Shown piece by piece: positions 4,791 to 6,586 of a stretch of DNA of 64,000 bases. Below the pieces are notes generated by a model. That model did not search any database. It was given only the letters and a program-made list of their open reading frames with translations, and was not told the DNA's origin. The first letter of the stretch is position 1, and the number at the start of each line of letters is the position of its first letter. Made by a program: the position numbers and the translations under genes. Source of the stretch: Bdellovibrio bacteriovorus (GTDB lineage Bacteria > Bdellovibrionota > Bdellovibrionia > Bdellovibrionales > Bdellovibrionaceae); NCBI RefSeq assembly GCF_001592745.1, contig NZ_LUKD01000001.1:1508848-1572847 (forward strand), written 5' to 3'.

Positions 4791-4812
4791 TGCGCCGCAA
4801 GAAGATTTCATA

Positions 4813-4842
4813 TTGTCAATTTCTGGACCCTATGCAAACCTT
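4813..4842 (+). promoter_or_regulatory. Putative histone promoter: TTGTCA-N4-CTGGACCCT motif
   Basis: A TTGTCA hexamer (4813-4818) is followed after four bases by CTGGACCCT (4823-4831). The same arrangement, TTGACA-N4-CTGGACCCT, lies upstream of rho at 15558-15576. No good -10 hexamer sits 17 bases after the TTGTCA. Whether this is a promoter or a regulator site is inference. Confidence 0.35.
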
Positions 4843-4878
4843 TTACAGGTAAACACACGGATGGAGAGAGGTTTAATC

Positions 4879-5073
4879 ATGGCAGAAGTACTTGTTGTAA
4901 CAAGCAAAGTAAAAAAACTTATCAAAGAAAAAGGTCAAATGAACACCTCTGCTGAGACTATTGATGTTCTTAGCAAAGCTATTGAGCAACTTTGCTTAAA
5001 AGGTATCGAAAGTGCTAAAGCTGATGGTCGTAAGACTGTTATGGCACGCGATATCGTGATCGATCACCTTTAA
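4879..5073 (+). CDS. Bacterial histone, Bd0055 (HBb) type
   Basis: A 64-residue protein made of one histone fold: helix 1 (about residues 6-16, VTSKVKKLIKEKG), loop, long helix 2 (about 22-49, starting NTSAETIDVLSKAIEQ), loop with the paired-loop DGRKTV, and helix 3 ending in MARDIVIDHL. The TSAE...AIEQL pattern and the C-terminal RKTVMARDI are typical of archaeal-type histones. The sequence closely matches my memory of Bd0055 of B. bacteriovorus, reported as an abundant, DNA-coating nucleoid protein. The start is ATG 4879, after GAGAGAGG at 4863-4870; the longer open frame upstream overlaps the preceding gene and is not needed. Monocistronic: a strong terminator follows at 5101. Confidence 0.93.
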   Translation: MAEVLVVTSKVKKLIKEKGQMNTSAETIDVLSKAIEQLCLKGIESAKADGRKTVMARDIVIDHL

Positions 5074-5100
5074 TTTGGTGCTGATTTAGTTATTGCAAAG

Positions 5101-5127
5101 AACCCGTGGTGAAAGCCACGGGTTTTT
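5101..5127 (+). terminator. Rho-independent terminator after histone gene
   Basis: Perfect 9-bp stem AACCCGTGG / CCACGGGTT with a six-base loop and a following T run, 27 bases after the histone stop. Confidence 0.9.
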
Positions 5128-5159: not shown

Positions 5160-5187
5160 TCAAGACAAGTCGTTAATTCGCCGATAA
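5160..5187 (+). promoter_or_regulatory. FliA (sigma-28)-like promoter for the secreted protein gene
   Basis: TCAAG (5160-5164) and GCCGATAA (5180-5187) match the two boxes of the flagellar sigma factor FliA (TAAA / GCCGATAA). The space between TCAA and GCCGATAA is 16 bases, one more than in E. coli, and the same 16 is seen at the flp promoter at 62801-62828. The start codon lies 38 bases downstream. Confidence 0.6.
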
Positions 5188-5224: not shown

Positions 5225-6586
5225 ATGAAAATGACAGCGATGCTTTTTTCATTACTTATTGCGCTGACTTCAAGCGCGTTTGCGCAAGGCAAATTCTATA
5301 AGTCTACGGACAAGATCACCCTGTCGTATGAAGAGTTCCGCGCACTTACTGATGAAAATCAAAAAGCTTGGCTTAAAGAGATTCAAGCCTTCTATGCTAA
5401 AGTGGACGCTGTCGAAGCCGGCGAAAGAATTAATCCAAAACGTAAGTACAGCCTCTTGCCCGAGTTCTTGTTTCAGGCACTTTCTAACTCCACTTCATTT
5501 TGTGCCACATCTTCTATTCTAATTGGGAATCCCGCCGAGGCAGCCAATGAACGCTGTCAGGTGCAAAGAAGTGTGAAAGCAGGGGCTTCGTTAGTTTGTA
5601 TGCGTTGCCCGGGCGATCGCCTTAGCGGTGTCTACGTATGTACAAGCGCAAATGACGATGCTTCCACGATCTCAAAAAATCTGCTTAAGGAACTTGATAA
5701 AAAAGATTACGAGGGATCAAAGGTTCAAATTAGCGCCGACTCTTTATCAAAACATGTTGAAGTGACTCTCGATGAAGGCTCATCCCCCTTTGAGGCTCCT
5801 ATTCTTCGCAAGAATACAGTCGTAAAAAGAATTGTCACACCGTCTTCGTCTGAAGAAGTGGTGATTGATTTAGGCCCGGAAGCACAAATCAAAAAGGCCT
5901 CTAAAGCCGGCCCAATGACAGTGGTAGAAAGACGCGACGAAAGCGGCGCCGTCTTGGATCGCGTGGGCAATAATCCTCACGTGGCGGACTATCATCTTAG
6001 AGCGCTAGAAGATGTCGGAAACTCGAAAGGGAACGACAATCTTGATGTCGAAGAGGTCAGCAAAACCGAACGTCTGGCTTGCGTTTATGCGGGTTGGGCC
6101 GTAGAAGGCCCGCAATGCTCTCCTATCAGTGAAAAAGAAATCCGTGACGCTTCTGGAAAGTCAGTCACTTACTCTTGTAAAGCAGATCAAGACGGTTCAG
6201 CGGTTTATGGAGACAATGAAGACGGAAAGTCCGTTGTCCTATGTAATCCCGTGCTTTTTGGATTGAAAGATGAAAAGCCTATTTGTATTCGTCGCTCTAA
6301 AAATGCGACGGAAGAGTGTGTAAAGGCGTCTAATAAAGCAAGCGAAACGCTGGCATTTGCCAAATCCAATCCTACAGAATATCGCGCGCTGGTTCGTCGC
6401 GTAGACGTTCTTTGCCAGCAAGATGAAAATGTTTTGCGCAAACACTTTGAAAAGCGCGGTCGCAGTAAATCACAAGTCGACCATGCGATTAAAGACTTAA
6501 GTTCTACCTGCGTGCATCTGCGTGGTCGTATGGCAGAACTCGTTGACGCTAATAAAGCAACGGCACCGCGCGCAGGCCAGCGCTAA
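5225..6586 (+). CDS. Secreted protein of unknown function
   Basis: 453 residues with a clear signal peptide (MKMTAMLFSLLIALTSSAFA, cleavage before QGKF). The mature part has about a dozen cysteines, several in pairs (VCMRCPGD, CVYAGW...QCS), which suggests disulfides and a periplasmic or extracellular location. I do not recognise a family. The ribosome binding site is AAAGGA just upstream of ATG 5225. A FliA-like promoter upstream suggests expression together with flagellar genes. It is convergent with ligA and the stop codons abut, with no visible terminator between them. Confidence 0.78.
   Translation: MKMTAMLFSLLIALTSSAFAQGKFYKSTDKITLSYEEFRALTDENQKAWLKEIQAFYAKVDAVEAGERINPKRKYSLLPEFLFQALSNSTSFCATSSILIGNPAEAANERCQVQRSVKAGASLVCMRCPGDRLSGVYVCTSANDDASTISKNLLKELDKKDYEGSKVQISADSLSKHVEVTLDEGSSPFEAPILRKNTVVKRIVTPSSSEEVVIDLGPEAQIKKASKAGPMTVVERRDESGAVLDRVGNNPHVADYHLRALEDVGNSKGNDNLDVEEVSKTERLACVYAGWAVEGPQCSPISEKEIRDASGKSVTYSCKADQDGSAVYGDNEDGKSVVLCNPVLFGLKDEKPICIRRSKNATEECVKASNKASETLAFAKSNPTEYRALVRRVDVLCQQDENVLRKHFEKRGRSKSQVDHAIKDLSSTCVHLRGRMAELVDANKATAPRAGQR

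Follow-up and report, generated by a model that had tools for sequence, protein, structure and literature searches.

The best-studied bacterial histone is Bd0055 (HBb) of Bdellovibrio bacteriovorus, a member of the class named 'bacterial dimer' histones (PMC11390915), for which crystal structures were determined with and without DNA (PMC10627809, PMC11317129). Bd0055 is a dimer with shortened alpha2 and alpha3 helices, its expression is very high, no protein in the nucleoid fraction was more abundant, and it ranked 12th of 2,125 proteins by abundance in the attack phase (PMC10627809). It is a homodimer in solution and its single dimers bend DNA non-specifically (PMC11317129), nevertheless the binding mode is disputed, since a straight sheath (PMC10627809) and bending (PMC11317129) were both proposed. 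Attempts to delete bd0055 failed in two groups (PMC10627809; PMC11317129), and the second group (PMC11317129) cites RNA-seq that places its expression in the replicative phase. Structure, DNA binding and RNA level through the predatory cycle have already been published for this protein (PMC10627809, PMC11317129, PMC3627812).

The gene analysed here lies in a window of 64,000 nucleotides (the whole stretch of DNA that was analysed), and its product is the ortholog of Bd0055, that is, an already known protein, one amino acid apart from the published one. The 64-residue translation, MAEVLVVTSKVKKLIKEKGQMNTSAETIDVLSKAIEQLCLKGIESAKADGRKTVMARDIVIDHL, aligned with Bd0055/HBb over its full length with 63/64 identical residues (98%, the sole difference being V43I), matched PDB 8FVX and 8CMP at about 120 bits / 2e-35, and scored 22.8 bits against the Pfam histone family PF00808, where the cutoff is 21.4. 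An AlphaFold2 monomer (pLDDT 86) was compared by Foldseek: the best five matches were all Bd0055/HBb structures, 8FVX, 9EZZ, 9F0E and 8CMP among them, with archaeal HTkC and Leptospira HLp next in rank. The earlier note had recognized a whole histone fold of the Bd0055 type in this product, and Pfam, the Bd0055 alignment and Foldseek agreed on it; absence of a histone fold, or a better fit to a different helical family, is excluded because Bd0055/HBb was best both in sequence and in Foldseek. Searches for phage and Rfam matches found none.

The residues known to be functional in Bd0055 are retained. All 12 DNA-contact residues that were checked (taken from PMC11317129) are identical, and so are the R51-D58 pair (RD clamp) and A48, S45 and I61, three residues associated with the loss of tetramers. 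The protein consists of one histone fold of ~60 residues without any further domain, it carries the RKTxxxD motif as RKTVMARD together with the RD clamp, and it has the S9-K10 motif and the helix 1 lysines; among 20 family histone sequences S9, K10, K12 and K13 are invariant and K16 is nearly so. It does not belong to the nucleosomal archaeal (HMf) class, which it matched at E values of 0.09-0.3 only, and A48 stands where archaeal tetramer histones have histidine. As PF00808 also names NF-Y/CBF factors, the product could be regarded as a sequence-specific CBF/NF-Y-type transcription factor instead of a general chromatin protein, which is extremely improbable: the near-identical Bd0055 binds without sequence preference and tops the nucleoid fraction (PMC10627809, PMC11317129), and there is no extra domain in the histone. 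A start at TTG 4729, which would lengthen the product to 114 aa, was also considered; it was rejected because the members of the genus differ in how far the frame stays open ahead of the ATG (about 1 to 51 residues), whereas the ATG and the Shine-Dalgarno element are constant.

The histone was present in 24/24 genomes of the genus with 86-100% identity, and 65 of the 66 family genomes, from 20 genera, had a histone match, where any histone match at E <= 0.001 was counted. Two of these 65 (G042 and G046) had a match of the second type (Bd3044-type) only, possibly due to incomplete assembly. A single histone fold had been called rare in a bacterium; within the gene's own family this does not hold, as it is near-universal there. 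The gene is single-copy and it is the sole histone-fold gene found in its genome. Pairwise dN against other genus members was 0-0.08, dS ranged from about 0.5 to saturation with the exception of the two nearest relatives, and none of the 22 shared four-fold sites was invariant across the genus: the gene is under purifying selection. The second, longer histone occurred in 7 of the 24 genus genomes and was absent from the genome of the window; one of its representatives (L025, 1483-2019, minus strand) has 178 aa and a cysteine-rich, ZZ-like N-terminal part. Besides the histone, the window's genome encodes four HU/IHF-family proteins (G000, contigs C1, C5 and C6).

The extent given for the locus in the earlier note, 4813-5127, coincides exactly with the first base of the TTGTCA element and the close of the terminator hairpin. 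The features between these two ends are collected in Table 1.

Table 1. Features of the histone locus (positions in the window)
Feature	Positions	Strand	Basis
-35-like TTGTCA	4813-4818	+	no variation among the 24 genus loci
Extended -10, TATGC followed by the hexamer AAACCT	4831-4841	+	footprint over 24 genus loci
Shine-Dalgarno-like GGAGAGAGG	4863-4871	+	sequence reading
Histone gene, Bd0055/HBb ortholog	4879-5073	+	ATG start, 64 aa plus stop
Intrinsic terminator hairpin, 13 pairs, 4-nt loop, U-rich end	5098-5127	+	folding, conservation

The hairpin had a folding energy of -20.5 kcal/mol (z = -6.06; 0/200 shuffles were equally stable), and it was kept in form and in the same place at all 24 genus loci, in accordance with the terminator that had been claimed. 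The promoter region claimed likewise proved to be a footprint conserved at each of the 24 loci. TATGC is invariant in all of them, the hexamer reads AAACCT at 22 loci and AACCCT at 2, and the -35 element is separated from the hexamer by 17 nt ending in TATGC (18 in five species); GGAGA ahead of the ATG is also kept in 24/24. Family-wide, most loci showed by eye TTGTC or close variants, a TATG-like element and a hexamer whose second base is A and whose sixth is T. The layout TTGTCA / 17-18 nt / TATGC / hexamer is that of an extended -10 sigma70 promoter, for which a transcription start near 4848 is predicted; AAACCT resembles TATAAT weakly, and from the layout we infer the use of sigma70. A generic sigma70 promoter scan upstream of the histone gave no match because the -10 is weak, and the footprinting supersedes it. 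A sigma54-like GG...GC reading was rejected by eye, its spacing being 7 and not 10.

This promoter, which is deeply conserved, seems to be undescribed in the literature surveyed. The 21-base element GGACCCTATGCAAACCTTTTA occurred once in the genome even with up to 3 mismatches permitted. The layout is not an enriched class in the genome, because TTGTCA-N12/13-TATG had fewer matches in the rest of the genome than in the reversed control (3 vs 7), and so did the TTGACA version (1 vs 5). It may be suggested that this is a dedicated growth-phase promoter, in which recognition by a phase-specific sigma factor or regulator keeps AAACCT and TATGC fixed, so that the histone supply is linked to DNA replication in the prey; we consider this suggestion rather unlikely. 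A TGCGCCGCA block at 4791-4800, about 12-16 nt upstream of TTGTCA, is conserved through most of the genus and is a possible upstream activator site.

A phosphoesterase gene precedes the histone gene on the same strand at all 24 genus loci, and the promoter elements lie in the 88 bp gap between the two. Since no terminator was detected in this gap, the monocistronic expression claimed in the earlier note is plausible rather than certain. The short gap, its lack of a detected terminator and the fixed gene order would also suit a histone mainly co-transcribed with the phosphoesterase gene, the conserved intergenic block being a leader or a regulator site; we regard this as quite improbable, since the extended -10 layout is conserved while the four-fold sites are not, and the very high expression of Bd0055 (PMC10627809) fits an own start. 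Transcription from its own promoter is the reading that we prefer for the histone gene.

The usual downstream neighbour in the genus is a convergent ligA, and some lineages, that of the window included, have other genes inserted between the two. Here the inserted ORF (5225-6586) encodes 453 aa with a signal-peptide-like start. The 'FliA-type gene' of the earlier note is not borne out for the protein, which shows no sign of being FliA because it matched no Pfam, NCBIfam or PHROGs family; the label is appropriate for the promoter. TCAAG-N16-CCGATA(A) at 5160-5187, upstream of this gene, is a FliA/sigma28-like motif, of which none was expected by chance, and it is one letter apart from the attack-phase promoter consensus TTAAG-N16-CCGATA (PMC3627812). 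It was present in 5/5 genus loci with the 453-aa gene and absent within about 500 bp in the other 19. With this motif in front of it, a gene under an attack-phase promoter comes directly after a histone gene known for growth-phase RNA, and the histone terminator presumably insulates the two.

Taken as a whole, the locus of this Bdellovibrio species almost certainly encodes the single-fold histone Bd0055/HBb of the 'bacterial dimer' class, a nucleoid-packing protein that probably has its own growth-phase promoter. The function of Bd0055 can be transferred because of the near-identity, thus dimer formation, DNA binding and bending, abundance and timing, and a probably essential role, are taken from the Bd0055 papers. 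The protein is most likely a homodimer, which would bind DNA non-specifically by way of the L1-L2 loops (T23, S24, K52, T53, R57) and the start of helix 1 (T8, S9, K10, K12). Since the archaeal tetramer contact is lacking, single dimers would bend DNA locally; at high density they may coat it, and the histone would pack the nucleoid and form no nucleosomes. Its gene is probably transcribed from the extended -10 promoter during growth phase, after which the protein would accumulate and be carried over into attack-phase cells with their compact nucleoid.

These results confirm that the best-studied bacterial histone is near-fixed and near-universal in its family (Bdellovibrio and relatives). What is added here is modest and consists of the footprint of the histone promoter, the fixed synteny and the FliA promoter in front of the 453-aa gene; the precisely located promoter and terminator would allow tests of histone dosage through the predatory cycle.

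Compared with the known systems, the protein shares with Bd0055/HBb (PDB 8FVX, 8FW7, 8CMP, 9EZZ, 9F0E) the DNA contacts checked, the RD clamp and the short alpha2 and alpha3. The Bd3044-type second histone also has a bacterial histone fold, with the motif RKTVMDRD and 40-51% identity over 57 residues in the genus, but with its ZZ-like N-terminal extension the frame reaches about 170-190 residues in the genus, in contrast to the 64 aa here. HLp of Leptospira perolatii (PDB 9QT0), a tetramer-forming histone that wraps about 60 bp (PMC12701072), and archaeal HTkC (PDB 9F2C) have the histone fold in common with it (TM about 0.7), although with 34-40% identity only. Archaeal HMfA/HMfB share the fold and the RKT...D loop, whereas their longer alpha2 and alpha3, tetramer interface, hypernucleosomes and weak sequence match set them apart from the histone described here.
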